Source of the DNA: Pyropia yezoensis
Taxonomy: Eukaryota; Rhodophyta; Bangiophyceae; Bangiales; Bangiaceae
Reading direction: 5' to 3'
Assembly (NCBI GenBank): GCA_009829735.1
Contig: CM020620.1
Location: forward strand, 27,002,951-27,066,950
Length of the DNA: 64,000 bases
Shown here: positions 10,578 to 55,303 of the stretch, one piece after another
How positions within the stretch are numbered: position 1 is the stretch's first letter
How the letters are laid out: each line of letters starts with the position of its first letter
Notes under the pieces: model-generated
The model's database searches: none
Seen by the model: only the letters and a program-made list of their open reading frames with translations
Told to the model about the DNA's origin: nothing
Position numbers and translations under genes: made by a program

Positions 10578-10859
10578 TAGCTCCCTACCTAGTCCGGCAC
10601 GTCCTCGGGCCGAACCAGGTGCCACCGTGCACAGCCTCGAGCACGTCCACACCGGTGCCGAGGTCGAGCGTCTTCACCCCGAGTACGATCACCTGCCCCC
10701 CCCCGTTCTTCTTCACCTTGACTTCCTTCGTTCCCCCGGGTTCTGGACGTCATTTCCAGTTCCGAGATCCAAGTTGGGCCCGCGGTTTCGGCGGCGAGTG
10801 TTGCAGAGGAGAGCTCGGGTGGCCGTGCCCCTCTCCTGCCTCCGGTTCCTCGGATGTAG

Positions 10860-12762
10860 GTGCCGGCGTCGGTCGCAGCGGCGGAGGCGGATCGAGCTTC
10901 CCCGGCTTCTGCGTCGCACCCGGTCGAGACCCCCCCGGTGGGTCTCCCGGAGATGCTTCTTGGGCAGGATCCTCTGGCGGGCCGGCGCTACTCTACGGTG
11001 GTCGGCAACACCAGCGCGGCCCAGTGCCAGCAGGATTGCCTGCCTATCTGGCGCAAGGAACTCCAGCGCGGAGTCTTGACGGAGATGGACAAAACTCGTC
11101 TTCATGCGGCGGACCATATGCGCCTGGCACAAGACCGCTCCCAGAGCTTTTCGGGTTCCTCTTGGGTTGCTCGCCTGGAAGACCTCCCCTTCGCGCTGGT
11201 GCTGGATCTACCCTTGACCGACCGTCGCGTGTCTACGTCCGTTCTCCGGTGGCCAGAGGAGGAAGGGTACGTCCATCGGGCGCTCAAGGTCTGGGACGAG
11301 GCGCGCTCAAGGGGTCGGGGAGCCTGAACTGTGATCCCAGTCCGGGCATGGTCGCTCTGGAGCCGCCTTTCTTGACCCGGAAGTACTCCATGTTGTCGCC
11401 GGTGCGGGAGCAAGGCGAGCGGCGCGGGCGCCAGCGGGACTTCATCGTGAGCTGCAACCATCAAGAGTTCTGGAAGCTGGACAAGGCCAACCGGGCAGCG
11501 TACTACCCCAAGGTCATCCCGCAGCAGCAGGAAGTCGAGATCCCGGTTGGGTTTGCTCCATCCAGCATCCCCTTCCCCTGGTACTTTCTGGACGCCTTGA
11601 CCCAGGCGTCGATCAAGGGGTTCTTCCACTTCATCCCGTACATGATGTACACCTCCGAGATGACGGTCTTGGCGGCCAACCACTGGCTCCACGAGGTTTG
11701 GTGTCTAACCGGCTCTGGCTCCTCCCCGACCTCTCGATGGTCTGGATCGTGGACAATTTGACCGTCGACTTCCTGTGCAGCCAGGACGAGGAGTAAAAGG
11801 AGCTCTTCCAGGCGATGATTGACATCCGGCGTCAGCTACCGGTGCATGACCGGAGCTTCTTGAACGCGATCGCCGACCAGAACAGCCCGCGTCGGGATGG
11901 CTCAGGTTGGGTGCAGGTGGTCTACCAGTCTTCTCCGGCCAAAGTGCAGCTGGCGACGCCGATGCCGGCGTGGCCGCAGCTAGGCAGCCTTCCTGCTCCG
12001 GTCGCCCTCGATCTCCTGCCAACTGGGCCGCCGGTACAAGAGTCGGGGTGGGCCGCGGCGGTCGGTCGGGCTTCTGCAGCGGCTCCGCTCCCTCCAGTGG
12101 CACCTGTCGCCCCGGTGGCCTCCCCTGGACCGTCGCCGGAGCGTTTGCGCCCTGCTCCGCCAGTGCCGGTACTTCAAGCTCCGTCGCCGGACCGTTTGCG
12201 CCCTGCTCCGCCAGTGCCGGTACTTCAAGCTCCTCCGGCACCGCGCCTGTCTGCAGCGAGTCGTGGTGTGGCCGTCCGGTCGCCGACTACTCAGGCCGTT
12301 CCTCCTCGGGCGCCTTTTTCAACTGTCGGCGGCCCTGTGCCACCTCTTGAGTTGGGGACTCCGGTTTCTGGGGCTATTGCTGACCGTCCGGCGGTGGCAA
12401 CCTCGGGGCGGTTCGAGACCCCGGCGCGGACTCTACGCCTTTCCCGCTTCCGGGTGCCTGATTGGTACCTGATCCAAGGTAGCCCGACGTGCGACCAGTA
12501 TGACGTTGGCATGATTGAGGACCAGCTGGGTCGTCTTCCGGTGCAGGTTAAAGGTGTCGGGTCTTCCTTGGTGCTGGGCACTTACGCCAGTGTCTTGAAC
12601 GATGTGGTCGACCGGGTGTTTGCCTGCGCGGACAGCGGCCAGATGTCGGACAGCCCGGTGGTTGGTGAGCTTCTGGGGACTTTGACGCGGCATGGCTTGG
12701 CCCAGCAATGGTCGGAGACCTTCACTGGCTTCCAGGGGCGCCGACAGGTCTACCTAGATTAG
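10860..12762 (+). pseudogene. E1 antisense reading-frame region
   Basis: Plus-strand coding-like sequence lying between the E1 3' LTR and integrase, opposite in direction to gag-pol. Blocks visible include a DLPLTDRRVSTSVLRW segment, a segment with WYFLDALTQASIKGFFHF, a Pro/Ala/Val-rich low-complexity stretch containing a duplicated PERLRPAPPVPVLQAP unit, and a helical C-terminal part (SVLNDVVDRVF ... LVGELLGTLTRHGLAQQWS-like). The order and the C-terminal helical block parallel the 789-residue antisense protein of E2a. It is broken in several places. Confidence 0.55.
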
Positions 12763-13067
12763 CGGGAGCGCCTGGCATCTACCGGTACTGCCCCGGTAGC
12801 GTCATACGTGGAAGGGCCTCGCCCACCGCACTAAGTCATCCCGCCTTCGTCCGGGTCCCGTCGTGCCGCGGAGACGGCGCTGGAGAACGCTCCTGCGGCG
12901 CAGCGTCCGCGCCGGGAGTAGTTCTTGAAGGCAAGGAGGATGAGAGTCTAAAGAGAAGTGGGGAGGGAAGAGGCGGAGAGAAGGGGTTGCTCAAGCGGGT
13001 GCTTGCTTTTCTTGATAGTTCCATGCTTGCATTGCGTGTTTTCCTTGATACACCCGTTCCCTTTTTC

Positions 13068-14640: not shown

Positions 14641-14677
14641 GTTGATGAGCTTCAGGCGTCTCATACAGGGGAGCATG

Positions 14678-17024: not shown

Positions 17025-17152
17025 ACAGGGTGTCCAGGCGGCTACCAGTTGAGCAGGTAACTGCCGTCGTTTCTCCCGGCACGCAAGGAGAGAACGGGTA
17101 GAAGTACCCTGCCGTCGGAGGTTCGGGAAGACACTTGGGGAGAGCGCCTGCC

Positions 17153-19036: not shown

Positions 19037-19122
19037 AGAAAAAGACAGAACAGGACCAACCCAACCGCTGCTCCCAAATGTCTCTTCTCAAACACTCCAA
19101 TCCCTTGCTGCTCCACCAAATA

Positions 19123-19693
19123 AATGGTATAAAACTCGATCCTCTCAGACACGTGTCAATATCCCTCGGGGGAAGGGGACAGGTAACACAGATAGGGGAA
19201 CTACGAGAGTGGTATGCCTGATGCCTCACGTGCCTGCTCGCAGAGCAAACAGATACGCACGGTAGTGCACACGGGGAAGAGGAAAGCAAACGCGCAGTTG
19301 TCTTTTTCCTGAGGGCGCGGGCCAAGGGCACCTCGCTGTCCCTCTTAACGTGCATCTGGGGGAGTCTCGGCACGTTGGCCAGGTAGCCCCCCCATACCCC
19401 CGAGTGGCCCCGACCCGAGTCTAACCTCGTCAGGTTGGGGGCCACTATCACTACTAATTCTATTCCCACTCACTAATCTCACACTCAAATTCTCTCAAAT
19501 CAAGTCCCTCACAAATATGCAAAAACCCATCAGAAATCCCTCTCTCACGTGTGGATAGCGTAGTCCACCGCATCCCAGAGCCGGGCACGGGCCACGGCCG
19601 CCAACCATCACCACACGGCGGGCGTGTTCTGGCACCTGGTGCCCTCTGGTTGCAGTCCCGGGTCGGCGCCAAGTCGGGGCCAGGGTTGCTACA
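19123..19693 (-). repeat. E1 5' LTR
   Basis: About 571 bp, the partner of 10004-10577. In gag-pol direction it runs TGTAGCAACCC... to ...GTTTTATACCA. A primer-binding site beginning TGGTGGAGCAGC follows a few bases inside, complementary to a tRNA 3' end of the form ...GCTGCTCCACCA; the same site is used by E2 and, with one change, E4. Confidence 0.85.
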
Positions 19694-19699
19694 GTCGGC

Positions 19700-21531
19700 C
19701 ATGGAGACGACTCGTCCCGGGCGAGGGTCGGAGGCGGCCGCCTCGGCCGTCCCTGCCCCATCACCCTCTACCGTTCCTTCGGCTGTGGTCCCACCGGGGA
19801 TGGGTCTTCCAACCCAGTGGCGGAAAGGGATGTGGCTCCCATTCCCCGCCTACCGGAGTCGCGGTTGCTACTCCCGCCGCGGCCCCGTCCTCCTGTGGGG
19901 CCTCGAGCCTGGGCGCCTCCCAAGTCAGTCGGGGAGCCTTCTGACTGCAAGCTCAACGAGACCTACTTGGTCATTCCTGAGCCACGGCGGACCGACGTGT
20001 GGTACCGCCTGACTCGTCGGTACCCCAACCAGGTGTCTCTACCTGAGGGGGTGGTCTGCGACCTACCGGCACTACTCTGCCTGGCGGACGCGCCTGAAGT
20101 CCAGGCGTTGTCAACCTCCCTCGCCATGGGGTCAGGCGACGTGAAGATCGACGACACCTGTGCGGTGGTGGCTACCGAGTGGTGTGCCCTCCCTCGTCCC
20201 TACTTGGGAGGATAGGACGCCCACGCCCATCACGGCGTGGTGCGAGTGGAGTTCCGACTCCGGGGCTCCTCTGGATTCCTCATCCACGGGTCGCGGGTGG
20301 AGTTCACCCACGTACCTCTGGAGGAGCGTGAGCACCAGTACCCGTTACTCCCGGGGTGGTGAGAGAGGGTGGAGGTACCTTGTGGGTTTCAGGCTCGGAT
20401 CCCACTCCTCGTAGCCTACTTTGGCTCTGTGTTACGCTCCAGCTCGGGGGGTAACCGGGTCTTCGCCTACCGCGCCACGCACTGGGTGGTCGTGGTGGCG
20501 AGGGGCTGGTATTCCGACGTAGTCCATCGGGGTTACCGATGGCTTCTCCCACCGACTCTGGTGGAAGGTATGGAAACTGTTGACTTGCACTGGTTAGCCT
20601 TGGGTGCGGGGGATCTGGCTCCGTACCACCCCAAGGGGATGGTCACCCTTCACAATCGACTCGATCGGGAGCAGTTGGACCCCTTCCTCCGCCGCAACAA
20701 GCGTTCGGAGCCGGGGTTGGAGAGTGAACCACCCCGGGACTTTGTCCATGTCACCCAAACTCTGGTGCAGGGGCATCTACTCCTGCGTGAGGGGTTGGGG
20801 GACCCTTTTCTTCCTTACGCGGAGGGGGTCACTCCCTGTACGTCGCCCCCTAGCTCTGGGTGGGCGACGTCATCGGCGACGACTCGTCGTGGTGCTCGTC
20901 GGGGCCTCCCTCGGAGCCGCGGGCGAGCCGCGCCTACGTCTTCTCGCGGGTCGCGACTCCGACCTCGGGGGGAGTGGAGCCAGCTTCAGCTCCCCCCTTT
21001 CACTTCCATGAGCCCTTCCCTGACGTGGGATTGTGTTCGCTACGGGTCCGAACTCCGGTACCCATGCCGATCGCGCGTGGCGTCGGCGAGATGCTTCCCA
21101 ACCTGGGAGCCATTATGTATGACGCCACAGTGGAGGCCTCACTCGTGGCCTCCCTTGACACGCTGGCTTGGGTCACCCGGCGTGTAAGTCACTTCCATGC
21201 GTCGGGCGACTCAGCCTCGGCGCGCCAGACGTTGGCAGCCGAGGTAACTTGCCTCGCTGTTGGACATGAGTTTGTCCAACGGCTGCTGTCGACTCAGCAG
21301 CAGCTTCCGCGTCATGGAGGGAGTACCTCCGGACATTTTCTTACGATGGGGATGGGTCCGCGAGTCGGCGGGCCTCTCCCAGTGCTACCACTCCTGGGCC
21401 TTCTCGAATGGGATACGCCCCTCCGTTTCCGTCCTACGACCCTGGTGCCTCATGGTCGGGCGGTCCCTATAGTAGTGGGGGAGGGCGCATGGAGCGCTAG
21501 AGTCAGCGGTGAACGACTTGTTCTTTTGTGA
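19700..21531 (+). pseudogene. E3 antisense reading-frame region
   Basis: Plus-strand coding-like sequence opposite to E3 integrase. Blocks: VWYRLTRRYPNQVSLPEGVVCDLPAL, which parallels LWRTRVGRGEVYLDPAFGVCDLIAPAL in E2a; an AYFGSVLRSS block paralleling RYFGSVLASR in E2a; and a C-terminal helical block with LPNLGAIMYDATVEASLVASLDTLAWV. DNA similarity to E2a is low, so the shared residues point to a protein-coding past. It is broken and is also interrupted by E1. Confidence 0.6.
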
Positions 21532-21622
21532 GAAGAGTGGTGTGTGTCTTTCTCGTTTTGTGTTGTGCCATGGTCGGCTTTGTTAGTAGAGAGTCTTTTG
21601 AAGAACCATGTTATGTGTACAC

Positions 21623-22963
21623 TCATGGTTGACTTGCCGCTCTGCTCTGACCTGGAGCATGGACTTCATCCCTCGACGTACGAGTGGTACGTCGGCGTAT
21701 AGATATGCCTGTAGCCTGGCAATATCTGCGGACCTTCTCTACTCGTAGGTCCTCTATAAACTCCCATGTGTCGGAAGTTGGCTCATACCCAAACCACCTG
21801 ACTCGGAGCAAAAGTAGCCCCGACTCATCGTATCCGTGTCCGACAAACTTTTCGAACACCGCCTCCAACGGTTTATTGGAGGATGTCGGCAAGGATGGGA
21901 CTTTCCATACTTGCAAGGCCCTTTCCCAAGCGGGATCTCCCTCTGCGGGTTCGGGTGCGCGAAGCGCGTGATTCCAATTTATCGTCCGGATATCATCATC
22001 ACTTTCGATGGTTAACCGGCGTCCATCCGTTTTCAGGATGTGATATGGTCCCAGAGTTTTGAAGACCAATTTCCCTCCCTTACTGTCATGGGAGTTAACA
22101 TAAACCCATTCTCCAACTCGGAATGGATCGCGACGATGTCTGACTCGAACATCGAAGTGCCTCTTGTAACGGGCTTGGGCCTTCTCCATAGTAGCCCGGA
22201 CAAGGGGTATCATCTCCTCCAGTCTCTGGAGTAGAGAGGCTTTCGCCTGACTCGGTGTTTGAGTCGAAGTCTCACCCTCGGTCTGGGTGAGGCGTTCCAC
22301 CGCTATTGACGGAAGTCGTCGGGGACAGACGAAGGCAAACGGTGCCTCTCCCGTACTACTGTGTACCTGGGAGTTATATGCTGTCACGAGTAGTGACGCA
22401 TAACGAGCCCATGTGACTGCATGGTCATGGACATAGTGACGCAACTGGTGCACTAAAGTACCATTGAATCGTTCCACCTTCCCAATAGCCTGGGGGTGGT
22501 AAGGGGTGGCGAAGTTCGTCTGCACCCCCAACTTCTTCATGACTCCCTGATGCAGGACGGACGCAAACTGTGATCCGTTATCCGAAAGGATAGAGTCAGG
22601 GATGCCATAACTGGCAATCCAGACGTCGAGCAACGCGCTCAGGACGTCCACGGCGGTGATATCCTTTAGTGGGGATACCCGTGTGAGCTTAGTAAAGCGA
22701 TCACATGTCACCAGAAGGTACTCATATCCTTCTGGAGTTCGTGGTAGTGGACCGAGTAAGTCCACTGCTATCGCTGCAAACGGCTCGGTTGCAGGAAAGA
22801 GTCTCATGGCAGAAGTCTGCCGGGACTCCATGAGTCTATTCTTTGCACAAGTCGCGCATACGGCGACATACCCGTACATAGCAGCCACGAGTGATGGCCA
22901 ATAGTACTTCTTGCGTAGAGTCTGATACATCCTCGTAGTGCTTCGGGCCTGGCCGATACTCAA
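21623..22963 (-). CDS. E3 integrase with chromodomain-like C-terminus (fossil part)
   Basis: A 446-codon minus-strand frame. It carries the end of the HHCC zinc region (CATCAKNR), the DDE-type core (IAVDLLGPL, LSDNGSQFAS, YHPQAIGKVERFNGTLVHQL), a linker with the GEWVYVNSHDSKGGKLVFKTLGPYHIL strand region, and a chromodomain-like end (LLLLRVRWFGYEPTSDTWEFIEDL). In chromoviruses this last module is thought to guide insertion to marked chromatin. As a stretch it looks open, but the element around it is incomplete. Confidence 0.8.
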   Translation of the reverse strand: MSIGQARSTTRMYQTLRKKYYWPSLVAAMYGYVAVCATCAKNRLMESRQTSAMRLFPATEPFAAIAVDLLGPLPRTPEGYEYLLVTCDRFTKLTRVSPLKDITAVDVLSALLDVWIASYGIPDSILSDNGSQFASVLHQGVMKKLGVQTNFATPYHPQAIGKVERFNGTLVHQLRHYVHDHAVTWARYASLLVTAYNSQVHSSTGEAPFAFVCPRRLPSIAVERLTQTEGETSTQTPSQAKASLLQRLEEMIPLVRATMEKAQARYKRHFDVRVRHRRDPFRVGEWVYVNSHDSKGGKLVFKTLGPYHILKTDGRRLTIESDDDIRTINWNHALRAPEPAEGDPAWERALQVWKVPSLPTSSNKPLEAVFEKFVGHGYDESGLLLLRVRWFGYEPTSDTWEFIEDLRVEKVRRYCQATGISIRRRTTRTSRDEVHAPGQSRAASQP

Positions 22964-23258
22964 CGTCCTAATCGACCTCAGCGAGGCAGAGTCGCCATCG
23001 ATTGAGTTGGTTATTCGTACAGGCTGTAGTGGTGAGTATCCACTTCAAAGCCTTGTGGTCGCATCGAATGAGGAACTTCCTTCCTTCGATGTATGGCCGT
23101 AGCATGGAAACTGCCCATACTACACCAAGGCCCCCTACCTCTGTCGCAGAATAGTTCTTCTGCGCAGGTGAGAGTCACTTGCTAAAGTAGCAAACGGGTA
23201 GATACTCCCCCGAAGGCTGTTCTTGGAGTAAGCAACAACCGAGTTGGTCGTGACTTGC

Positions 23259-23621
23259 CGTAGCATTATGGATGACCGTATTGCGACCCTAATTTAGGGC
23301 GTCTACTTCTATCCCGCAACTTTCAATTTTGGGAGTCCGCACTGGTCACGGTATCTGCGAGTTACGTATGACCAGAGGGACTTGCATCTTGGGGTAGAGG
23401 GTAGTTAGTGGTATCTCCGAGGGTTTATAACGAAGGGGCCGGCGGCGAGTCCACCGCCGGCCATGGTAGAACAACAAACCCCTCCCATGTGGGCTCTCAT
23501 CTTGGTCCCGTGGCTTGCGCTCCAAGGACAGCAACATTGGCCTCCCGGTGACGTTGGTGCCGATCCCCCCTGGTGAGTGTTCCCTGAGAGTGGACATGTT
23601 ACGGATTCCTATTGTGCTACA
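23259..23621 (+). repeat. E4 5' LTR
   Basis: About 363 bp, ending ATTGTGCTACA; the reverse complement aligns along its whole length with the E2 LTRs (TGTAGCACAATAGG...). The start, CGTAGCATTATGG, corresponds to TGTAGCAATATGG in E2. Confidence 0.82.
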
Positions 23622-23846
23622 TTGGTCGAGCAGCAGGGGACGGGTTTCCGTCGCCTTTTGGGTGACGCTGTCTTCGGCCCTGGCACACGGATAGGGATCC
23701 GGTCCTTTTCTTGTACTCGTGGTGTTGTGATCTGGTCGATTGTGTTGAGAAGGTACGTTTGACTGCGATCTACTGTTGCTCTCCCCAACCTACCCCCTCG
23801 CTCTCTTTTTCGTGGTGACAGTTACGTCGGTTGACTGAGTGTGACG

Positions 23847-25884
23847 ATGTCCACCCACGAGACGGGGAACGTTCAAGATGACGGATCGGCGTCGATGCCG
23901 ACCCCGGAGGTGATTACGGGAACCGGGATCGGGAACCCGATCGACAACATTGAGACGCCGATGCTCTCCGGTGCCGGATCGACGATTGGTACGGTTCGGA
24001 CGGCTGGGGGCGGTGGCCCGCCTCAACTGTCGTCGGCTGATCTCACTCCGCCGCCTCCTTCACCGGGGGATTCCCTGATGGCATCATTGGCTCTCATCGA
24101 AGCCCGGTTCTTCGGACTCGATGCACGCCAAGAGCGTACGGAGGACGCAATGGCAGTGTTGATGTCAACACGCCACACGACGGTACCCCGTCAGGTTCCT
24201 CCCACACCGGTACGATTTGAACCGCCCGGACTACTTTAGGAGTCTACCGGGGTCGACCCCGATGCAGCTACTCCGGGACCACCCCCGGATACGGCGGGTT
24301 ATGGATCCGACTCTTCAGCCGAGCTGGAACGGAGTCACACGGAGCGCTACGCTCGGAGCATCCGAAGCGGACTCCGCGGACACGCACCGGTGGAAGATTA
24401 CGCCGGAGCGGAATCGGCTATTGGGCGGGGCGGTACCCTATCCCAATATCCCTACGCCGGACGAAGCCAGGCAACTCGGGAACCTGAGTTGCCGACGCCG
24501 GAAGTACCAGCGTCAGTGGTGGAAGCTATGACAGCGCAGGTAACTGCGAGTTTACTCAAGCGCATGGAGTCGGATGAGTTTGCTCACCAACTGGCCAAGC
24601 GACTGGATACCCAGGACGCGGACACGGAGATCATCAACGAAGTCTTCCGGTCGGTACTGACTCCCGAACGTTATCGTTTGGAGGACCGTTCCGTTACCGT
24701 ATCGGAGTCGATGCGTAATACTTCGCATCGAGCGATCCGCTCTATGCAGACCCTTATGAAGGGAATCCCTATGTTCGGGGGCCCGAACGGACGCCCGTTG
24801 GCAGTCATCGGCTTCTCGACCAGCTTCAAGGCAGCCGCGGATAAGGCACTCGTTAACAAGGGGCTAGCCCTGGAAATCCTCCAGTTCTTTGTTGATGAAC
24901 GGGTACGAGGCATCCTGCGCCAGGCATCTCCGATGCCGGGAATGAGGTTTGCAGCAACCCCCATGGATTACCGTGGGACTCTTAAGGAGCTGTTAAGCAG
25001 CAACCTCAGTGAGGACAAGTGCGAGGACCACTACCGGGCCCTTCGCACTGCCACCGCTCAGAGCTGGGAGGATGAGGAGATGTTCGGACGCCGGATCCAA
25101 GAGCTCGATTACGAGCTGGGGAAGCTCCTCGGAGAAGGGGAGCTACGAGCTATCCTGTTCGCGGGAGTACCCAACTACGTGCGGATATCCGCACGGGGAG
25201 TCAACACGGCTCGGACGAACTTCAGTCGACTGATGCACATGTGCAAGTCGCTGGGGTACGCCTATCGGGTTCTTCACCCGGAGTGTGCCGTAGCCCCGAA
25301 GCCGAAGGGTGAGGGAAGCAAGCTCCATCTTACCCCGGTATCGAGGCAGGAGAAGGGGGATTGTACGGCCGCACCAGTACTCGTGGCGACTGAGTACGCC
25401 CCCACGGGGGAGAAAGAACCCCTGGTCGATCAACAGGGCCACCTGTTGCAACCAGCTACGCCGGTGATCGATGAACAAGGTACGATAGCGTACATCGCCC
25501 CAGCTGGAGCCCAGTTCCAGGTCAGCGAGGGTACGGGACGGCGCATCCCGCATGTACGGACGACGGGGTATACCCCGATGACGGGGAACCCCCATCAACC
25601 CATGCCAACATGGGCGGTGCGTACGGAGGCACCTCCGCAGGTCGCGGGCCGACCCAACCGGTTGGGGGAATTCATGTTCCGCTTGACCCAAGGACCCAAG
25701 GCCGACCAAGGGGCAGGCACTCGGGCGCCAGAGGCGGGCACCCGAACCTATGGGGCCACCCCGGCAAGGACCCAAGGGGGGACCGGAACTTCCGGGTGTA
25801 TGTTGTGCGGGGATCCCCAGCACTGGGTGTCTTCCTGCCCTCTCATCCCCGAGGAGTCCCGGCGAGCAGCGGCACAACGTAAAG
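23847..25884 (+). pseudogene. E4 gag region
   Basis: Starts MSTHETGNVQDDGSAS, like the E2 gag (MSTQETGNVQDDGSAS), and ends in the CCHC knuckle CMLCGDPQHWVSSC followed by CPLIPEESRRAAAQRK. It is broken, with about two breaks, and truncated at the end. Confidence 0.8.
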
Positions 25885-27384: not shown

Positions 27385-27747
27385 TGTAGCACAATAGGGA
27401 TCCGTCGCACGTCCACTCTCAGGGAACACTCACCAAGGGGGATCGGCACCAACGTCACCGGGAGGCCAAGGTTGCTGTCCTTGGAGCGCAAGACACGGGA
27501 CCAAGATGGGAGCCCAAATGGGAGGGGTTTGTTGTTCTACCTTGGCCGGCGGTGGATTCGCCACCGGCCCCCACGTTATAAACCCTCGGGGACACTACTA
27601 ACTACCCTCCACCCCAAGATGCAAGTCCCTCTGGTCATACGTAACTTATAGATACCGTGACCAGTACGAACTATCAAATTGAAAGTTAAGGGTTAGAAGT
27701 AGCCCCCCTAATATTAGGGTTACAATACGGCCAACCATATTGCTACA
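27385..27747 (-). repeat. E2a 3' LTR (left)
   Basis: 363 bp, TGTAGCACAATAGG ... CATATTGCTACA. A plus-strand TATAAA at 27577-27582 points toward the antisense reading frame. Flanked on the left by AGCCG (27380-27384), the same five bases that follow the E2b LTR at 54115-54119. Confidence 0.9.
27577..27582 (+). promoter_or_regulatory. TATA-like box in E2 LTR pointing to the antisense frame
   Basis: TATAAA within GTTATAAACCCTC on the plus strand, kept in the E2a and E2b LTRs apart from one substitution after it in E2b. It lies about 760 bp before the antisense start at 28339. In this A/T-rich hexamer the opposite strand also reads TTTATAAC, so direction is not certain. Inference only. Confidence 0.35.
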
Positions 27748-28338
27748 TATCCCCCCCTTAGATTCGGCCCGTGCTCGGGTCGAGTTGCATTCGGGTTACC
27801 GAATGTAAGTGGGTCGCGTGACCGTTTACCAGTCGGGTGGGGCTTTGCGCCCCGTCGCGACAGACACCCCTTTTCGAGGTTGTCTGAGGGGGGTGCCCCC
27901 CTTTGTGTGGTACACACACGATCCGTTTTCCGGACCGTTAAATTCCCGATGCGGGTTCTGTTCACGACCCCCCTTTCCGAGGGGTGCTGCAAGCGGATCC
28001 GCCACCAGGTGTCTGGTGGTAGGGGAGCCCCTCTCGTGTTACCGAGTGAATGGTGGCGGCCGCTCCCGCTTTTCGCGGGGGCGGTTTCGGGGTGAACCCC
28101 TCTTGGTTGCCCCGTACGGGGGTGTGGCCCCGGCCCGCCCAGGTGCCTGGGTGGAGCCCGTTCGTAGCCTCGTGGGGCGCGGGTTGACCCGCGCGCCTGA
28201 GGCGCTTCTCGTGGCCGTTTGTGGTCATAAGCGCGGGCGCCCGCGCTTCCCTGGCTCGTCCGCGCGAGCGTTCCTCGTACCGGGTCGAGCCGGCCTCGGC
28301 TTTTCTGCAAGGGGCGCCCCTGCCACCCCGGTTGCCCC

Positions 28339-30708
28339 ATGTCGGACCCCCAGGTACCCGGGGGCGAGGACGACCTCCTGCCTGAAGAGGGGGAAGAGGT
28401 GATGGTGGACGACGTTCCCGTCTCCGCCACCGCCGCCGAGTGCTTCCTAGCGAGCTCGTCGGAGGACGAGGACGACCGGGTGACCCTTCGTGTGGCCCCG
28501 GACGGCGCGCCGGGCGGGTTGTCGTCCGTGTGTAGCGGCACGACGGCTCCGTCGGGTGGCGGACAACCGCGTGCAGCGGTGGCTTCTACCGCTTCTCCTC
28601 CGGCGGCCCGGATGGCTTCTGTCGCCGGTACCGGCGTGGCCCTACCTCAAGACGGTGTCGCCGGCGTGGCGGATGGTGGTGTTGGCACCCCGTCCAGTCC
28701 GGCGGGTCAAGACGGCGCGGGTGCCCGCCCGGTTGGTGTGTCCGCTGCGGCGGGTAGCGGGTCTACCCGTGCTGCCCCCGTGGCACCCACGTCGGGTCCG
28801 GGTGGCGGCGATGCTCTGCCCGCGGTGCCGCGGGCGTCTGGTGGTCAAGGTGGGTCTACACCGATGGCTGTGGACTCCGGTAGTTACTCCGGGCGGGCGC
28901 CCGTCCTTCTGCTTCCTCCTCGGCCGCGTGCGACTCCGGCGCCGGCCCCTCTTCCGGTGGGGCATCCCCCGGCGCCCCCGATTCTTCCTGGTCCTGCCCG
29001 GGTTGCCCCGTTGGGTGGCGGCGTCGCCGTGGCGGCGGGTCAACCCGCCATGTCGATGTTCGACTTGGTGGCTCGGGTTCGAGGCCTGACTGTGCAAGAG
29101 TCAATGGAGTCCGATGGGCGGATGCGGGTGGACTTCCACCTGCCCCATCCCCGTGGAGAGTCCTCCCGGCGCGTCAAGGTGGACCCGAGTTGGGAGCGGG
29201 AGTTGGTGCGGCTGGTCAACCAGCCGAACGCGGTGCGAGTGGAACACCATTGGATCCTGAGTCAGCCGGACGACCGGCATGCGCAGCTCTGGCGTACTCG
29301 GGTGGGACGGGGTGAGGTCTACCTCGACCCCGCCTTCGGGGTATGCGACCTGATTGCTCCCGCGTTGCCGCGGGAGATTGACTACCCGGCTAGTGCTCGG
29401 GGGATTGCGGCGGCGGCGGAGCCGGTTGCGTTTGGGGAGACGGTGGGCAGTACCGGTCGGTATCCCGACTTTGATTACTACCCGGGGGTATCCCCGTATC
29501 TGTCGTTGACGGCTCCCTACCCGCCTATGGCGGGGTTGAAGTCGGCGTCGAGCTGGCGACGTAACCATGGTGTCATGGCGGATGCGTTTCGCACGGATAT
29601 AACGTGTGCGTTGCAGACCGGCAACGGTCGTGCGCCGGTATACACTCCCGTGCGCCCGCCGCTATGGCAGGAGGGGTGGGAACCCGCCCCTGCTTTCCGG
29701 TTTGACACCGGCTCCTGTCTCCGATACTTCGGGAGTGTGTTGGCCTCCCGGCCGGTCCACCCGTTGCAGGGTACCTTCACCCTTGAGGTTACCCTCGGGC
29801 AGGCGTCCTCCTTCTTGCTGTCCGTCCGCCGGCAGGGGCGCCTGTTTCAACTTCCGACGGGTGTCCGTCGGCACATCGCGCAGTTGGGCGTGGACATGAT
29901 AGCCGCCAAGACCGGGTTGGCCCGGGAGTTCGAGGCCCTGCTGGCTGTTCACGATGCCGTGAACTGGGCTGGGGTGTTGGCCCTTCCCCCGTACCGGGAC
30001 CCGCAGGCTGGGGCTACCCCCTTGCCTCGTCACTCGTTGCGTATCCGGCGTACTCAGCCGGGTGAGCCTAGTTGCCATGGGTGGGCGTCCACCGAGGCTG
30101 TTGCTGACTTGGGTATTCCCATGGTTATCCATGACCCTCTTCAGGTCCTTGCCCCGTGGTTCGGTAACCCGATACCGGCGGCGGTTGGCCGTCGTCCCCG
30201 AGAGTGGGGCTCTGCGGGTGGGGAGCGTGAGGTGTCCCGTCGTCGGGCGGAGCCCCGCCGGGGTTACGGTGGAGCCCCTTCGGTAGGGTCCTACCGAGCC
30301 TCGTATCAGGTGCCACCGGCTCCGGTGGTAGCCGTGTCGGCTCCTTTGGCTCCTCTGGCTGCGCCAGTGTCCGCTCCCGCCCCTGTCATACAAGACGGGG
30401 GTCCCCGTCTCTGGTATGAGGGCGTTGACGCCCTTGTTGCCCGCGCAATGCGGGAGGGTCTCTCTGATAGCTGGGGGGATATCCCCCCAGGTGCTGCGCT
30501 AGTTGGGTCAGCGCGTTGCTTCGGTGGCGTGCTGGACCGCCTCCAGAAATCTCTGGAGGATGTGGAGGCTGGCCGCAGCACCCTCGTCCAGCTATGCACC
30601 GAGGTAACTCGGGTGATTGACCGTCGTGAGATTGCCGACCGGTGGAGCACGGAGGTATACGCGCTTACGAGTGAGTGGCCTCCCTCGGGCAGTGGGTCTA
30701 CCCACTGA
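28339..30708 (+). CDS. E2a antisense protein, 789 aa, unknown family
   Basis: One uninterrupted plus-strand frame from ATG 28339 to TGA 30706-30708, opposite to gag-pol and lying between integrase and the 3' LTR. Layout: an acidic N-terminus (EDDLLPEEGEEVMVDD, later SSSEDEDD); a Pro/Ala/Gly-rich flexible stretch to about residue 235; a globular region about 238-600 with LWRTRVGRGEVYLDPAFGVCDLI and RYFGSVLASR (near 464); a second low-complexity stretch; and a helical C-terminus from about 726 (CFGGVLDRLQKSLEDVEAG ... RWSTEVYALTSEWP). No signal peptide, membrane segment, zinc knuckle or nuclease motif is evident. Counterparts occur in E1 and E3, with these blocks conserved. Some plant Gypsy groups carry antisense ORFs, but I cannot tie this protein to any known one. 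It could be an accessory or structural protein; function unknown. Confidence 0.75.
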   Translation: MSDPQVPGGEDDLLPEEGEEVMVDDVPVSATAAECFLASSSEDEDDRVTLRVAPDGAPGGLSSVCSGTTAPSGGGQPRAAVASTASPPAARMASVAGTGVALPQDGVAGVADGGVGTPSSPAGQDGAGARPVGVSAAAGSGSTRAAPVAPTSGPGGGDALPAVPRASGGQGGSTPMAVDSGSYSGRAPVLLLPPRPRATPAPAPLPVGHPPAPPILPGPARVAPLGGGVAVAAGQPAMSMFDLVARVRGLTVQESMESDGRMRVDFHLPHPRGESSRRVKVDPSWERELVRLVNQPNAVRVEHHWILSQPDDRHAQLWRTRVGRGEVYLDPAFGVCDLIAPALPREIDYPASARGIAAAAEPVAFGETVGSTGRYPDFDYYPGVSPYLSLTAPYPPMAGLKSASSWRRNHGVMADAFRTDITCALQTGNGRAPVYTPVRPPLWQEGWEPAPAFRFDTGSCLRYFGSVLASRPVHPLQGTFTLEVTLGQASSFLLSVRRQGRLFQLPTGVRRHIAQLGVDMIAAKTGLAREFEALLAVHDAVNWAGVLALPPYRDPQAGATPLPRHSLRIRRTQPGEPSCHGWASTEAVADLGIPMVIHDPLQVLAPWFGNPIPAAVGRRPREWGSAGGEREVSRRRAEPRRGYGGAPSVGSYRASYQVPPAPVVAVSAPLAPLAAPVSAPAPVIQDGGPRLWYEGVDALVARAMREGLSDSWGDIPPGAALVGSARCFGGVLDRLQKSLEDVEAGRSTLVQLCTEVTRVIDRREIADRWSTEVYALTSEWPPSGSGSTH

Positions 30709-31186
30709 GGAGTGCTATTGGTTGTGAGGGAGAGGGCCCCGGTGACCCTTATGGTAGCCGGGTAGTAGTGCGTATAAACTCATCCCCTTTGGGGGCATTG
30801 CTTGCCTCTGTTTGCTGCCCTGGGGAGTACCCCTTCTGGCTCAGTGGTGCCTTGCCTCCCGCCCAACTTCTTCCGGTTGGTTCATGCTTGGGGAGGTCAT
30901 CCTCCCTCACTTTGTGTCTTGGCTTGGGGAGGTCATCCTCCCGTGTAAGCCCCCTAGTTACTTCGATATTATCGAAGTTAGCCTTTACCTTTAAGTTAAC
31001 TTATTAAGGTTCAGGTTTTGCTTAGTTACCTAAGCTTGACTCTACTTAGTTGCCTAAGCTTGGTTCGACTTAGAAACCTAAGTCTGATTTGACTTAGAAA
31101 CCTAAGTCTGCCGTAACCATGTCACACCCTACTTAGTAGGTATAAGCCTCACCCCCCAACAGCCGAAGTCGGTGTCGGTTGGGTTG

Positions 31187-34100
31187 TTACAGGAGGCGTC
31201 GTCGCCTCATGTAAGGCATGAGGAGTTGGCGGGGTATATTTGCCGCCTGTTCCCAGGTGGGTGAGTCGTATCCGACCCACATAACCTTCACGTACCAGGG
31301 TCCTGGTAGGTTCGGGTCGGTGTGTCCGACCACGCTCTCAACTTGGTATGGAATCCCATCCGGTCCCACCGGGTCATCTGACCGGTGGGTTGTCAGAGCT
31401 TCATGTAGCAACCCAGCCGGTACCGGCTGAGGCTGTTCCGGCTTCGGAGCAGGTGTGACACCATTCACACTGATGCGTTGGATCTCCGTATCGGAGTGTA
31501 AGATAACAGAGTGGTCATCTCTTTGGAGAATCTGGTACGGTCCCTTGACCGGTTGCATGAGCTTGTTTCCCCGGAACTTCTGGTGTCTGATGTAGACCCA
31601 GTCACCTGTCATCAGGGTTGCGTTGTGCACCCGTAACCGGGTGTCAAAGTTCTTCTTGTATCGAAGTTGTGTTCTGTCAAGGGCACCCTTGAGCTTAGGA
31701 ATCATCCAGGATAGCTTGGCCAACCAAGCTAGGTGGATACGTTCGGCCGGTCGGCCTTTCGGTGTATCATACCGAGTGCACCTGCCTGGTGGCAGCGTCG
31801 GGTTACCGACGCCTAGTGGCATGACCCACTCCAGTGGGGCGATGTTGGTACTCCGATGTGGCCTGGCATTGTATGCCAGGGTGAGTACGGACAGAAGCCT
31901 GTCCCAAGTGTTCGTGTGCTCGGCCACGTAGCACTGTAGCATCTTAACGATGGTGCGGTTGAACCGCTCCACCTGCCCGTTGGTTTGCGGGTGGTAGTCG
32001 GATGCCCGACGTGGTTCGATACCGAACATACCCAGGACCTTAGTGCAGAATGCTGACGTAAGGTTTGCTCCGTTGTCGGAGAGGAGTTGCTTCATGACTC
32101 CGTATGCACTGATCCAGTGGTCAACCACTGCGTTCATGATGGTGTATGCCGTATCATTCGGGATGGCTGCCGCGCGTGACAGCTTAGTGAAGCGGTCAGA
32201 CATGACCAGGATGTACCTGTTCCCTTCTTCCGTTACCGGAAGTGGCCCGAGTATGTCGATAGCGACTTGCTCGTTGGGCCCTTCGGGTGGGAATAGCTTC
32301 ATGGCAGACGCCTGCCTATGTAGACTCATGCGGTTACGCGCACAGGGTTGGCATCCCCTTACGTGGTCGACCACGTCGACGGCCATTGCTGGCCAGTAGA
32401 AGAACCTTCGCATTGCTGCGAACATACGTGAACCCCCCGGGTGTCCGGCTGTGGGGTTCTCGTGTTCTCGTTCCATGACGGCTTGCCGTAAGGACACGGG
32501 AACCACGACTTGATGTCGTCCATCGGCGGGTGCCCGCCGGTATATGAGTCCGTCTTCGTTCTCGGAGAAGATGCCGGCCGTACCGGCCAGGAAGTTAGCG
32601 CGATGACGTCTACAGTCGTCGTCATTGGCTTGTGCCTCGCGGAAGTCCGCGAGGGTTAGTGGGCATGCTCGGTGTGCCATGGTATGGTCAACCATACCTT
32701 GGGTAGCGTTACCCACCATGCAGACCGGTACCACCGGGATGTCCTCGTCCACCGGGCGGGTATCCCCGCTCGGGGTGTCGAGTCGGGACAGCGCGTCTCC
32801 GAGATGGTGGGTTGACCCAGCCTTATACACGGTACGGTAGTCGTGCTCGGCCATTTTTAGCCTCCATCGGGCTAGCCTCCCATGGCTATCGGAATCCTTG
32901 TCACCAAGGTTGAGGAGCCATCGTAGAGGTTCGTGGTCGGACCTCACGATGAACCTGGAGCCCTCCAGGTATGGACGGAGCAGTTGCACTGCCCATATAA
33001 CTCCGAGGCACTCACGCTCGGTGGCACTATAGTTACGCTCAGCCGGGTTGAGTGTCCGGCTGAAGTATCTTACCGGACGTAGGTCCGGGATAACGTTATG
33101 GGTACCGATCAACGTCTTCCCCTGTAGCAGGGTGCATCCTACTTGGGTGTCGCACGCATCGACATCGATGACGAAGGTCCCCCGTCTATGCGGTAACGCA
33201 AGGACGGGAGGGGACAGTAGGGCTCGCTTTAGCGACTCGAATGCCTCCTCTTCGCTAGTCGAAGGGGCTTGGAGTACCTTGGGTAAGGCACTGCTCGTAA
33301 GAACCGTCAACGGTTTAGCTATCCGTGCGAAGTCCTTGACGAACCGTCGGTATACGTTGCACATTCCCAGGAAGCTCTTGAGCTGCGTCTGGGTGTTAGG
33401 GAACCGGGCATCCCGGAGTGCCCGGGTATTGGCTTCGAGTACCCCTAGTTTACCAGGGGTTATCTGGTGGCCCAGATACTCGACCGTCTGTTGGAAGAAG
33501 GCGCACTTCTTCAGACGCAGGGTTACCCCGGCGTTCCTCAAGAGGGTGAGTACCTCGTCAACATGTTGCACATGGTCATCCATGTTACGCGAGAAGACGA
33601 TGACGTCATCGAGGTACACTAGGCAGTTACGCCACTTCACCCCCGACAGTATAATGTCGATAGCCCGCTGGAATGTAGAGGGGGCGTTGGACAATCCGAA
33701 GGGCATCGTTAGGAACTCGTACACTCCACTGTGACAGGCGAATGCCGTCTTGGGGGTATCCTCGTCCGCCACCGGGATCTGCCAGTATCCGGCATTGCAG
33801 TCGATGGTGGTAAACACCGTAGCTTCCCCCAGGGAGTCGATGCATTCATCCATCCTTGGTAAAGGGTAGGAGTCCTTCTTGGTAACCAAGTTGAGGCGTC
33901 GATAATCGATGCAAAACCGAGGGGTTTGATCCTTCTTCGGTACGATAACGACTGGGGCACCCCACTCCGACATCGAAGGTCGTATCACCTTCGCTTCACT
34001 CATCCTCTTCACTTCTCCATCAACGATCTCTCGTTGCATAGGTCCCGCTCGGTGCGGTTGTGACCGGGCGGGGCGTGCGCCTGGTACCAGGTCAATACGA

Positions 34101-35353
34101 TGTTGGGTTGCCCCAATGGTACCCAGGGCTCCGCCTGTCCACATGACGTCATGCTTTCTTAAGATCCGTCGTACCCCTTCGGCTACGGAAGGGGGAAGGT
34201 GGTCGAGGTCAGCCTCGGCCAGTGCCTTCAATGCTTCTTGGTCCTTCTGCGGAATATCCGCCGGTAATGATGGTCGACTAGGCTTCCCGTCATCGGGTTG
34301 CTGTCGCTCGGTGGTCTCGGCGACCGCCAGCACCTCAAGTGGGTCCACTTGACCTTCCTTCTCAGAGGTAAGGATATCTTCTTCGTAGAGCTCGGCAATC
34401 CCGAGGATAGTTCCCTTCAAGAGGGTGACTGCCTTACGGCGATAGTTCGCCATCACTAGGAGGGACGACCCTCCTGATGGGAGGTCTATGAGACCGTTGG
34501 CCATGGTCAACCCATGGCGCTTGTAGGTTCGTAGGTTGGACCGGACTCTGCAGATGCCTGCAAGCTCACAGTTAACCGGGAGGACGGTCTCCGATAGCGG
34601 CTGAAAGCGAGTCCGCTTGGCCAGCCGGAGTGTCTTCGGTTCTACGCTTGCGTATACCTCAGCCACGTTAACGTGGCTCCCTTGTAGCGTCAGGTCCCTG
34701 ACGATCGCTGTCTGTCCTCTCTTCGTCCCGTCGGCCTCTTGCAGCTCGACGGTCCTCTGGCCCGGCGGGATTGCATCAACGTGAACGTTGATGAAGGTGC
34801 ACCCCAGTATGCAGGGCACAGATAGCGTCTCACATACCAGGAAGTCAACTTCCGTAGTAAGCTCCCCGATGGTGACCTGCAGCGACATCGCTGCGGTCGT
34901 ACGAATGAGACGACCATTCCCATCCTTGATCGTGGGTCCCCGAGTCACCCTGACTCGCGGAAGCCACTTCTCCGGGAGGGTATCCTTCCGGACCAAGTGA
35001 GGCCCAGCCCCTGTATCCAGTACAGGGTAGTACGATCGTGTCGACTGGGGGTCAACCCCCAGTGTGGCTGATACCTTGAAGTTCTCCAAGGTAAACAGCA
35101 CGTGGCCTACACCGATATCCGGTGTAGCTCGGGCATCCTGAACAGGGCCCTTGTCTGGTTCCATGTGACGGGGCTTCCCGTCCTCTCCTCCCAACCTTGG
35201 TGGTTGGTCATCAATCCCCTGACGCCGTGTCGTCGGGGCCGGAAGGTGTACCCGGGGGTTGATGCGGCGTCGGCTCAACCGCGCTCTCCGTGGGGCTTTC
35301 CCCGCGGTACTCCGGGGTGGCATGCTTGGGTTACCCCAGCGCCCCCCGGTCAT
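31187..35353 (-). CDS. E2a pol polyprotein (fossil part, looks whole)
   Basis: A 1388-codon minus-strand frame. Order: retropepsin VLDTGAG (DTGA at 113-116); reverse transcriptase with FCIDYRRLN and YLDDVIVFS (near 579); RNase H (VDACDTQVGC near 732, RYFSRTLNPAERNYSATERECLGVIW); integrase HHCC (HPGGSRMF ... CQPCARNR), DDE core (AIDILGPL, LSDNGANLTS, TNGQVERFNRTIVKML); and a C-terminal chromodomain-like WYVKVMWVGYDSPTWEQAANIP. It starts 8 nt after the gag stop codon and in a different frame from the E2b-type gag, so pol must be made by reinitiation, frameshift or a separate message. Confidence 0.9.
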   Translation of the reverse strand: MTGGRWGNPSMPPRSTAGKAPRRARLSRRRINPRVHLPAPTTRRQGIDDQPPRLGGEDGKPRHMEPDKGPVQDARATPDIGVGHVLFTLENFKVSATLGVDPQSTRSYYPVLDTGAGPHLVRKDTLPEKWLPRVRVTRGPTIKDGNGRLIRTTAAMSLQVTIGELTTEVDFLVCETLSVPCILGCTFINVHVDAIPPGQRTVELQEADGTKRGQTAIVRDLTLQGSHVNVAEVYASVEPKTLRLAKRTRFQPLSETVLPVNCELAGICRVRSNLRTYKRHGLTMANGLIDLPSGGSSLLVMANYRRKAVTLLKGTILGIAELYEEDILTSEKEGQVDPLEVLAVAETTERQQPDDGKPSRPSLPADIPQKDQEALKALAEADLDHLPPSVAEGVRRILRKHDVMWTGGALGTIGATQHRIDLVPGARPARSQPHRAGPMQREIVDGEVKRMSEAKVIRPSMSEWGAPVVIVPKKDQTPRFCIDYRRLNLVTKKDSYPLPRMDECIDSLGEATVFTTIDCNAGYWQIPVADEDTPKTAFACHSGVYEFLTMPFGLSNAPSTFQRAIDIILSGVKWRNCLVYLDDVIVFSRNMDDHVQHVDEVLTLLRNAGVTLRLKKCAFFQQTVEYLGHQITPGKLGVLEANTRALRDARFPNTQTQLKSFLGMCNVYRRFVKDFARIAKPLTVLTSSALPKVLQAPSTSEEEAFESLKRALLSPPVLALPHRRGTFVIDVDACDTQVGCTLLQGKTLIGTHNVIPDLRPVRYFSRTLNPAERNYSATERECLGVIWAVQLLRPYLEGSRFIVRSDHEPLRWLLNLGDKDSDSHGRLARWRLKMAEHDYRTVYKAGSTHHLGDALSRLDTPSGDTRPVDEDIPVVPVCMVGNATQGMVDHTMAHRACPLTLADFREAQANDDDCRRHRANFLAGTAGIFSENEDGLIYRRAPADGRHQVVVPVSLRQAVMEREHENPTAGHPGGSRMFAAMRRFFYWPAMAVDVVDHVRGCQPCARNRMSLHRQASAMKLFPPEGPNEQVAIDILGPLPVTEEGNRYILVMSDRFTKLSRAAAIPNDTAYTIMNAVVDHWISAYGVMKQLLSDNGANLTSAFCTKVLGMFGIEPRRASDYHPQTNGQVERFNRTIVKMLQCYVAEHTNTWDRLLSVLTLAYNARPHRSTNIAPLEWVMPLGVGNPTLPPGRCTRYDTPKGRPAERIHLAWLAKLSWMIPKLKGALDRTQLRYKKNFDTRLRVHNATLMTGDWVYIRHQKFRGNKLMQPVKGPYQILQRDDHSVILHSDTEIQRISVNGVTPAPKPEQPQPVPAGLLHEALTTHRSDDPVGPDGIPYQVESVVGHTDPNLPGPWYVKVMWVGYDSPTWEQAANIPRQLLMPYMRRRRLL

Positions 35354-35361
35354 CCTTCCTC

Positions 35362-37552
35362 TTACTCGTTTCCCGCCCTTAGTAGGGTGCTGTCCGCCGG
35401 GACATCCGGCTGCGGAGGTGCCTCCTCGACGGCCAGTACTCCACCTGGAGCTGGCTGCCTACCCGGTGCGGGTCCGGGTGCTCTGGCGGGATACCCCCCG
35501 GTGGATGCCTTGCGTTGCGCCGCTGCCCGCCGAGACTCCTCGGGGATGAGTGGGCAGGAAGACACCCAGTGCTGGGGATCCCCACACAACATACATCCGG
35601 ACGTGCCGGTCCCTCCTTGAGTTCGCATCGGGGTAGCCCCGTAGCTGCGGTTGCCTCCCTCGGGCGCCCGAGTGCCTGCTCCCTGGTAGGCCTTGGGTCC
35701 TTGGGTCAACCGGAACATGGACTCCCCCAACCGGTTGGGTCGGCCCGCAATCTGCGGAGGTGCCTCCGTACGTACTGCCCATGTAGGCAGGGGCTGGTGG
35801 GGGTTACCCGTAACCGGGGCATACCCCGTCGTCCGCACATACGGGACGCGCCGTCCCGCTCCCTCGTTGACCTGGAACTGGGTCCCAGCCGGGGCGATGT
35901 ACGCTACCGTTCCGTGCTCATCAATCACCGGCGTAGCCGGTAGCAACAGGTGGCCCTGTTGGTCAACTAGAGGTTCATCCTCGCCCGTAGGGGTATGTTC
36001 GGTCGCCACCAGTCCTGGTGCGGCCTTACGTTCCACCTTCTCTTGCCTCGGTACCGGGGTAAGACTGGGCTTGCCTCCCTCACCCTTGGGCTTCGGGGCC
36101 AAGGCACACTCCGGGTGTAGAACCCGGTAGGCGTCCCCTAGGGACTTAAACATATGCATCAGTCGACTGAAGTTCGTCCGGGCCGTATTGGCTCCCCGAG
36201 CGGATATCCGCACGTAGTGGGGTACTCCTGCGAACAGGATGGCCCGTAGCTCCCCTTCTCCGAGGAGCTTCCCCAGCTCGTAGTCGAGCTCTTGGATCCG
36301 GCGTCCAAACATCTCCTCATCCTCCCAGTTCTGGGCGGTGGCAGTGCGCAGGGCCCGGTAGTGGTCCTCGCACTTGTCCTCGCTGAGGTAACTGCTCAGC
36401 AGCTCCTTGAGAATCCCACGGTAATCCATGGGGGTGGCCGCGACCCTCATTCCCGGCATCGGGGATGCCTGGCGAAGAATGCCTCGCACCCGTTCATCAA
36501 CAAAGAAAGGGAGGATCTCCAGGGCCAGCCCCTCGTTGACGAGCGCCTTGTCTGCGGCTGCCTTGAAGCTATTCAAGAAGCCGATGACTGCCAACGGACG
36601 TCCGTTCGGGCCCTCCGAACATAGGGACTCCCTTCATAAGGGTCTGCATAGAGCGGATCGCTCGGTGCGACGTATTACGCATCGATTCCGATACGGTGGT
36701 AGATCGGTCTTCCAAACGATAACGTTCGGGAGTCAGTACCGACCTGAAGACTTCGTTGACGATCTCCGCGTCAGCGTCCTGGATATCCAGTCGCTTAGCC
36801 AGTTGATGAGCAAACTCATCGGACTCCATCCGCTTCAGTAGGCTCGCAGTTACCTGCGCGGTCATAGCTTCCACCACTGAAGATGGTACTTCAGGCGTCG
36901 GCACTTCGGGAACCCGAGTTGCCTGGTCTCCTTCGTCGTGGGGATACTGTGAGAGGGTACCCCCTCCGCCAATATCCGACTCTCCACCGGCGTAAGTATC
37001 CGCCGGGTCGTGTCCGCGGAGTCCGCTTCGGGTGCTCCGAGCGTATCGCTCCGTGTGGCTCCGTTCCAACTCTGCCGACGAGTCGGATCCATACCCCATT
37101 GTGTCCGGGGGTTGTCCAGGAGTAGCAACACCGGGGTTGACCCTGGTGGACTCCGAAAGTAGTCCGGCCGGTTCGAACCGTACTGGTGTGGGAGGAACAC
37201 GACGGGGTCCCGTCGTGTGGCGTGTTGACATCAACACTGCCATCGCGTCCTCCGTCCGCTCCTGGCGAGCGTCGAGTCCGGAAAACCGGGCCTCGATGCG
37301 GGCCAATGATGCCATCAGGGAATCCCCTGGTGAAGGAGGCGGCGGAGTGAGGTCGGTCGACGACAGTTGAGGCGGGCCCCCGCCTCCTGCCGTCCGAGCC
37401 GTGCCAAACGTCGATCCGGCACCTGAGAGCATTGGCGTCTCAATGTTGTCGATCGGGTTCCCGATCTCGGTTCCCGTAGTCACCTCCGGGGTCGGCGTCG
37501 ACGCCGATCCGTCATCTTGAACGTTCCCCGTCTCTTGGGTAGACATAGTCAC
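35362..37552 (-). pseudogene. E2a gag
   Basis: Starts MSTQETGNVQDDGSAS; a capsid-like helical part lies in the middle (RYRALRTATAQNWEDEEMFGRRIQELDYELGKLL region), and a CCHC knuckle CMLCGDPQHWVSSC lies near the C-terminus. It is nearly identical to the whole 729-residue gag of E2b. About one break. Confidence 0.85.
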
Positions 37553-37770
37553 AATCAGTCAACCGACGTAACAATCACCACGAATAAGAGAGCGAGGGGG
37601 TAGATTGGGGAGAGTACAGTAGATCACAGGCAGAGGTAAAAACTCAACACAATCGATCAGGTCGCAACACCACGAGTACAAGAAAAGGACCGGATCCCTA
37701 TCCGTGTGCCAGGGCCGAAGACGGCGTCACCACAAGGGTGACGGAAACCCGTCCCCTGCTGCTCCACCAA

Positions 37771-38134
37771 TGTAGCACAATAGGGATCCGTCGCACGTCC
37801 ACTCTCAGGGAACACTCACCAAGGGGGATCGGCACCAACGTCACCGGGAGGCCAAGGTTGCTGTCCTTGGAGCGCAAGCCACGGGACCAAGATGGGAGCC
37901 CAAATGGGAGGGGTTTGTTGTTCTACCATGGCCGGCGGTGGATTCGCCGCCGGCCCCCACGTTATAAACCCTCGGAGACACTACTAACTACCCTCCACCC
38001 CAAGATGCAAGTCCCTCTGGTCATACGTAACTTACAGATACCGTGACCAGTACGAACTATCAAATTGAAAGTTAAGGGTTAGAAGTAGCCCCCCCTAATA
38101 TTAGGGTTACAATACGGCCAACCATATTGCTACA
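37771..38134 (-). repeat. E2a 5' LTR (right)
   Basis: 364 bp, partner of 27385-27747. The primer-binding site lies immediately inside (plus-strand reading ...GCTGCTCCACCAA). The outer flank CCTCG runs directly into Ty1/Copia sequence. Confidence 0.9.
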
Positions 38135-51335: not shown

Positions 51336-51343
51336 CCTTCCTC

Positions 51344-55298: not shown

Positions 55299-55303
55299 GT
55301 ACC

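Follow-up and report, generated by a model that had tools for sequence, protein, structure and literature searches.

An antisense accessory gene under purifying selection in Ty3/Gypsy elements of the red alga Pyropia yezoensis

Here, we report that a long open reading frame located between pol and the 3′ LTR of a Ty3/Gypsy retrotransposon in Pyropia yezoensis, and read in the direction opposite to gag-pol, is a real protein-coding accessory gene of these elements. The gene occurs in three element families (E1, E2 and E3), and purifying selection on it is clear in all of them. Repeats have been reported to account for 48% of the P. yezoensis genome, with LTR retrotransposons predominant among them (PMC7423979). 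Most descriptions of antisense accessory genes in such elements concern flowering plants, and no function has been established for these genes. Our analysis concerns a stretch of 64 000 nucleotides of contig CM020620.1 (hereafter the window), for which an earlier note, made from the sequence alone, had proposed an antisense accessory gene family in three Gypsy lineages; tests of selection, homology and orientation all support this proposal. The coordinates of the features are shown in Table 1.

Table 1. Location of the antisense accessory ORF (aORF), its host element E2a and related features in the window
Feature	Position	Strand	Basis or remark
aORF of E2a	28339..30708	+	789 aa; frame open from 28231
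aORF N-terminal region, aa 1-253	28339..29097	+	Low-complexity, Pro/Ala-rich, acidic stretch
aORF core, aa 254-573	29098..30057	+	Holds E3-alignable part; shared-change ratio 0.24
aORF Arg-rich linker, aa 574-701	30058..30441	+	Peak of basic charge in the 40-mer from aa 618
aORF C-terminal segment, aa 702-789	30442..30705	+	Predicted helical; low-confidence model
3′ LTR of E2a	27385..27747	- (element sense)	98.35% identical to 37771-38134 over 364 columns
Four CTTAG-N4-CTAAG palindromes, 24-bp spacing	31021..31106	.	Between convergent aORF and pol ends
pol of E2a (protease-like, RT, RNase H, integrase)	31187..35458	-	Pfam matches; protease below cut-off
gag region of E2a, two frames (423 and 329 aa)	35362..37558	-	Weak sub-threshold zinc-knuckle match
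5′ LTR of E2a	37771..38134	-	LTR pair identity and terminal sequences
E1 antisense ORF, broken copy	10860..12762	+	Pieces in frames 10860-11324, 10448-11761 and 11797-12762
E3 antisense ORF, larger part, frame-broken	19694..21531	+	Start lies left of E1, up to 10003

The antisense frame and its host element

The aORF comprises 789 codons counted from the ATG and 825 from stop to stop. Some 590 bp separate its start from the inner edge of the 3′ LTR, and it reads head-on toward the 3′ end of pol, and both the open frame and the element map agree with the earlier description of an uninterrupted plus-strand frame between the integrase and the 3′ LTR of E2a. The host element has the features of Ty3/Gypsy elements (Metaviridae), namely LTRs and the order protease, reverse transcriptase (RT), RNase H and integrase, with the protease match lying below the cut-off. 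Its LTRs end in TGTAGCA...TGCTACA and a purine tract adjoins the 3′ LTR, and no obvious target-site duplication could be observed around the element. Chromoviruses, to which the earlier note likened the elements, have a chromodomain at the integrase C-terminus; the only chromodomain match was in the E3 integrase and was sub-threshold (21.4 bits; cut-off 25.1), and none was found in the pol of E2. A bacterial promoter scan of the gap between the E2a LTR and the ATG is not meaningful, the host being an alga.

Other E2 sequences were also present in the window. A second copy (45542-54114) is 99.5% identical to 29548-38134 and lacks both the start of the aORF and the LTR beyond it. Adjoining this truncated copy, a frame at 44124-45596 matches class I fructose-bisphosphate aldolase and covers profile positions 1-189 of 349 only. 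In addition, an inverted E2 fragment (23260-25882) lies beside the E3 integrase; it corresponds to the gag region and LTR and is 88.5% identical to 35510-38133.

The GC content is 69% in 28001-30000 and the window holds other long frames, which would favor a frame that is open by chance. However, none of 1000 dinucleotide shuffles of the stretch that extends from the 3′ LTR to the pol stop contained a frame as long as the aORF in any of the six frames (longest frame per shuffle: mean 233 codons, maximum 543), and homologs are present in another species, so that a chance frame is rejected. A related explanation is that the aORF is the mere reverse of a coding sequence on the other strand. Consistent with it, minus frame 1 showed a low dN/dS ratio of 0.53 that mirrors the coding frame, but across 21 E2 copies this frame contained 398 stops, as compared with 4 in the plus frame, and coding on the opposite strand is rejected by these counts. 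The probability of either explanation is practically nil.

Counterparts in E1 and E3, copy number and orientation

Coding-like sequence in the same place and direction had also been noted in E1 and E3. Both of these window copies are split into several frames, and the observation is borne out by open copies elsewhere in the genome, with 638 aa from the ATG at two E3 loci (L038 and L039) and open frames of about 760–850 aa in many E1 copies among the matches listed. A complete E1 element (10004-19693), whose ends (10004-10577 and 19125-19693) are about 95% identical, is inserted inside the E3 antisense ORF: the alignment with an intact E3 stretch breaks off at 10003 and resumes at 19694. A five-base overlap at this insertion resembles a target duplication, GTCGG, and is likely to be one. 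The window also contains a third E1-type LTR (54730-55300) and, at 9125-9806, several tandem stretches of about 96 bp that resemble the region before the E3 antisense ORF.

Genome-wide copy counts, which are lower bounds, were high in each family. At least 57 full-length copies of the E2 aORF (including that of the window) were scored, with 96–100% protein identity, and 44 of the 57 had no stop. For the E3 type, at least 69 copies were scored using a metagenomic relative (P0015) as the query, 60 of which were stop-free, and the search for the E1 type gave 248 matches from 124 scored candidates. The E3 and E1 pieces of the window each have many copies in the genome as well.

The antisense gene was opposite to pol in 42 of the 43 loci showing both genes; seven of these loci duplicate others, which leaves 35 of 36 distinct places. 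In the single exception (L027), an E2 copy, the match to E2a stops early and the nearby pol is only 39% identical, and thus this pol is probably part of a different element. At loci whose two matches both extend to their ends, the aORF and pol are convergent and about 135–485 bases apart. By its site between pol and the 3′ LTR, its direction antisense to gag-pol, and its presence and conservation in many copies, the gene falls into the positional class 'antisense aORF-3R of LTR retrotransposons'.

Purifying selection on the antisense gene

The comparison of E2-family copies, which the earlier note had suggested, gave a pairwise dN/dS of 0.48 in the coding frame (21 copies), a value that is not near 1, whereas the other two forward frames had ratios of 0.90 and 1.87 and were full of stops. 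The value for pol, used as a positive control, was 0.475 in 16 copies, with 5 of the 21 omitted as they were only partly aligned (pooled pol including those, 0.54). No gaps were observed in the aORF alignment for 32 of 33 copies (including the window copy), and the remaining one had three gap positions with the frame kept.

For 33 of the 57 E2 copies, we also compared the changes with the numbers expected when changes are reassigned to sites that have an identical trinucleotide context. Replacement changes numbered 337 (386 expected), silent changes 232 (178 expected) and stop changes 7 (13 expected), and a replacement count as low as that of the aORF did not occur in any of 1000 simulations. 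Changes common to at least two copies were at 0.40 of the context-matched expected ratio, as compared with 0.75 for singletons, and all 7 stop changes were singletons. Thus, the data fit selection that acts while the elements multiply, followed by looser decay after insertion. Within the protein, the shared-change ratio was 0.24 for the core, 0.68 for the linker and 0.56 for the C-terminus, and constraint on the latter two segments taken alone was not significant. It should be noted that the E2 copies were taken among full-length matches, which introduces a bias toward intact genes, and that the top-ranked copies were picked by protein score, which favors low dN; for the latter reason 12 lower-ranked copies were added, and these showed ratios of 0.67 overall and 0.29 for shared changes.

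Similar results were obtained for the other two families. The window E3 copy had dN/dS of 0.26–0.28 against seven close E3 copies (at dS of about 0.23) and 0.42 against the distant L037, and the E1 family had 0.18–0.32 in 14 of 15 pairs, the L054–L055 pair having 0.70. Across the comparisons in the three families, other forward frames were mostly at about 1 or more. Among 36 E3 pairs, the very close ones, with few changes, had ratios of 0.52–0.81, and another forward frame was lower than the coding frame in 6 pairs. With dN/dS well below 1 in E1, E2 and E3, purifying selection on the antisense gene is clear, in line with the earlier suggestion that residue conservation points to past selection.

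These data also bear on the idea that the selected product is the antisense RNA (dsRNA or a regulatory RNA) and that the long frame is incidental. Such a transcript would be the complement of the 3′ portion of the genomic RNA, and regulation by antisense RNA has been discussed for elements of this kind (PMC7264820). However, selection is codon-frame specific in three families, gaps are nearly absent in the aligned copies, and the protein core can be aligned between families, which together make an RNA product very improbable.

Homologs and divergence of the antisense protein

Profile comparison of the E2 and E3 proteins gave a score of 61.9, as compared with a maximum of 27.7 in 40 shuffles, and that of the E3 and E1 proteins gave 55.9 as compared with a shuffle maximum of 28.3. 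The direct E2–E1 whole-protein score (25.5) was inside the shuffle range (40 shuffles, maximum 30.1), and the link of E1 to E2 thus runs through E3 only. On the basis of these scores, the E2–E3 and E3–E1 pairs are judged to be homologous over about 225 aligned core columns; in E2, the part alignable with E3 spans about aa 307–555 (hhalign). The blocks previously pointed out between E2a and E3 (LWRTR/VWYRR, VCDL and YFGSVL) therefore reflect real similarity, this pair being far above shuffled profiles. On the other hand, a helical C-terminal block, which had been considered common to all three proteins, received no support: for the block alone, the real score was reached by 52 of 60 shuffles for E2–E3 and 35 of 60 for E3–E1, and the E2–E1 comparison was marginal (2 of 60).

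The cores of the antisense proteins are alignable between families at 20–23% identity, whereas the integrases of E1, E2 and E3 are 36–39% identical and the RT-RNase H regions of E1 and E2 55% identical. Judged from these identities, the antisense gene is old and its evolution is faster than that of pol.

Homologs were found in other elements and in another species. The E2 protein matched five hypothetical proteins of Pyropia vietnamensis (32–59% identity, given for four of the five), and two further matches were near-identical. Matches of the E3 protein included four P. vietnamensis proteins (44–53%), two proteins from the source 'lgn', which we take to be Logan (59% and 50%), and a JGI metagenome protein (35%), and the E1 protein matched one ENA and one 'lgn' protein. 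A scan of IMG/VR for relatives of E3 gave two pattern matches and no relative. In Pyropia gene sets, entries called 'hypothetical proteins' can in fact be genes of transposons.

One might also consider that the elements carry the gene as cargo, either as a host gene that they captured or as a second transposon nested in them, and insertion of another element could indeed give the antisense orientation. However, the gene has the same place and direction in three lineages whose integrases are only 36–39% alike, and no Pfam transposase or host family was matched. The evidence thus speaks against recent cargo, and a very old capture is possible; we consider cargo as a whole quite unlikely.

Protein architecture and searches against known families

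The E2 protein has an acidic N-terminus (net charge of -15 in the 40-mer at aa 7). An Arg-rich stretch follows the core in all six E2/E3-type proteins examined and is absent there in one E1-type protein; such a stretch comes cheaply in a GC-rich genome. The core was predicted to be helical in low-confidence models. Two structure models (mean pLDDT of 32.9 and 34.8) were unusable and too poor for fold comparison, and a fold search with the second of them (39 matches, none at E ⩽0.001) was given no weight.

The earlier statement that the protein matches no known protein agrees with our searches. No Pfam family was matched by the antisense proteins at E up to 10 (11 A4 members and 8 A2 members), nor in a separate Pfam search at E up to 0.1. 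A sequence search of PDB with the E2 protein gave one insignificant match (8f70_A, E 0.072), and a PDB search with the E3 profile gave none. The TRP28 profile (PF04195) matched nothing in the genome up to an E value of 10, in a search whose control genomes yielded no true positive. Nothing was found in Rfam at the gathering threshold.

The aORF occupies the usual position of env, between pol and the 3′ LTR, and could therefore encode a structural or cell-to-cell accessory (a Gag helper or an Env/movement-like protein) rather than a nuclear regulator; a helical capsid-like role would be compatible with the data. However, no convincing membrane segment was detected in seven proteins, in which the highest 19-residue hydropathy was 1.22–1.57, as compared with a usual transmembrane level of about 1.6. 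Moreover, env-like genes are described as sense-oriented (PMC7264820), and the antisense aORF shows neither this orientation nor the transmembrane segment of such genes, and E2a has a gag region of its own with a weak zinc knuckle. A structural or cell-to-cell role is thus unlikely.

A palindrome array between the convergent genes

The palindrome array of E2a has a second representative in the window, which also consists of four CTTAG-N4-CTAAG palindromes at 24-bp spacing and belongs to an E2 element (47005-47090). By shuffling, 0 such sites would be expected in the window. Genome-wide, 2389 sites were counted, as compared with 24 for the reversed control pattern, which would correspond to roughly 600 arrays if each had four sites; the first 100 places listed lie in such runs. 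Exact sites numbered four in 13 of 21 E2 copies, three in 5 and two in 3. Relative to the window array, mismatches in the 20 other copies affected 9 of 779 letters in the arms, 12 of 312 in the spacers and 17 of 580 in the linkers, and the whole stretch is less conserved than the aORF (3.5% vs 1.4% mismatch to the window copy). As RNA, the stretch folds better than shuffles (z -4.1). No E2-like array was found in E1 and E3, where a tandem-repeat search of 10000-23300 gave only repeats at 12123-12237, which lie inside the E1 ORF, and a repeat search of short stretches gave unrelated short repeats only. Further palindromes (such as CTTCGATATTATCGAAG) are located at 30961-31012, also between the convergent genes.

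The array is a candidate target of the aORF protein or a candidate two-way terminator. A bolder reading, in which an antisense regulatory gene with a new fold arose independently in Gypsy elements of red algae and the E2 protein recognizes the CTTAG-N4-CTAAG array (stem-loops in the RNA), is in our view a long shot. If true, the E2 element would bring along both a protein and its target, with which it could counter silencing or steer its RNA.

Proposed function and comparison with known antisense genes

Most likely, the aORF protein would be a trans-acting, probably nuclear, regulator produced from its own antisense mRNA. Its position and direction match those of reviewed antisense aORFs such as Grande gene23. 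The promoter of the aORF mRNA would be an antisense one, located within the 3′ LTR or next to it. The protein, with its disordered N-terminus, predicted helical core, Arg-rich linker (in E2 and E3) and predicted C-terminal helices, may be a nuclear factor that binds nucleic acid or chromatin, and it would act in trans on its own family at the level of transcription, silencing or RNA handling. This mode of action is that proposed for maize Grande gene23 and for HBZ, the bZIP protein of the deltaretrovirus HTLV-1. We consider it reasonably probable that the full picture holds, that is, a selected accessory gene with its own antisense mRNA that encodes a nuclear nucleic-acid- or chromatin-binding factor acting in trans on its family. 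ENA matches, one for each of the three families, each lie on a single contig of 2319–2873 nt. Contigs of this kind have the size of separate transcripts, which may be a hint of such mRNAs, and they may also be genomic.

In the parts of the literature consulted here, several antisense genes are comparable with the aORF. Grande gene23 of maize has its own promoter and encodes a nuclear protein (PMC7264820). Plant aORFs, including the Retand proteins with TRP28, share with the red-algal gene both place and antisense direction, and they are likewise present in most copies and conserved like other element proteins (PMC7264820, PMC11963269). However, Retand proteins carry TRP28 (PF04195), a domain that is reported to be confined to flowering plants (PMC11963269), whereas here the host is a red alga and the proteins have neither TRP28 nor any Pfam match. 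By its sequence, the aORF protein is not one of the TRP28 proteins, whose profile remained without a match in this genome. Outside plants, an antisense aORF is known in Boty of the fungus Botrytis cinerea (PMC7264820), the likeness being one of arrangement. In HTLV, the 3′ LTR contains an antisense promoter and the protein encoded in antisense is nuclear (PMC7264820, PMC11963269); the arrangement of HTLV-1 HBZ is alike, as an analogy only.

Among the listed titles and abstract openings of open-licence papers, none concerned antisense genes in red-algal elements, which is weak evidence of absence. Genes of this kind are known in plants and one fungus, and the protein family and the host group appear to be new. 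A family that shows no detectable sequence relation to the plant genes, and on which purifying selection could be measured in red algae, suggests repeated origins of the antisense arrangement as well as its usefulness. In addition, an abundant aORF family in a cultivated seaweed provides material for functional tests.
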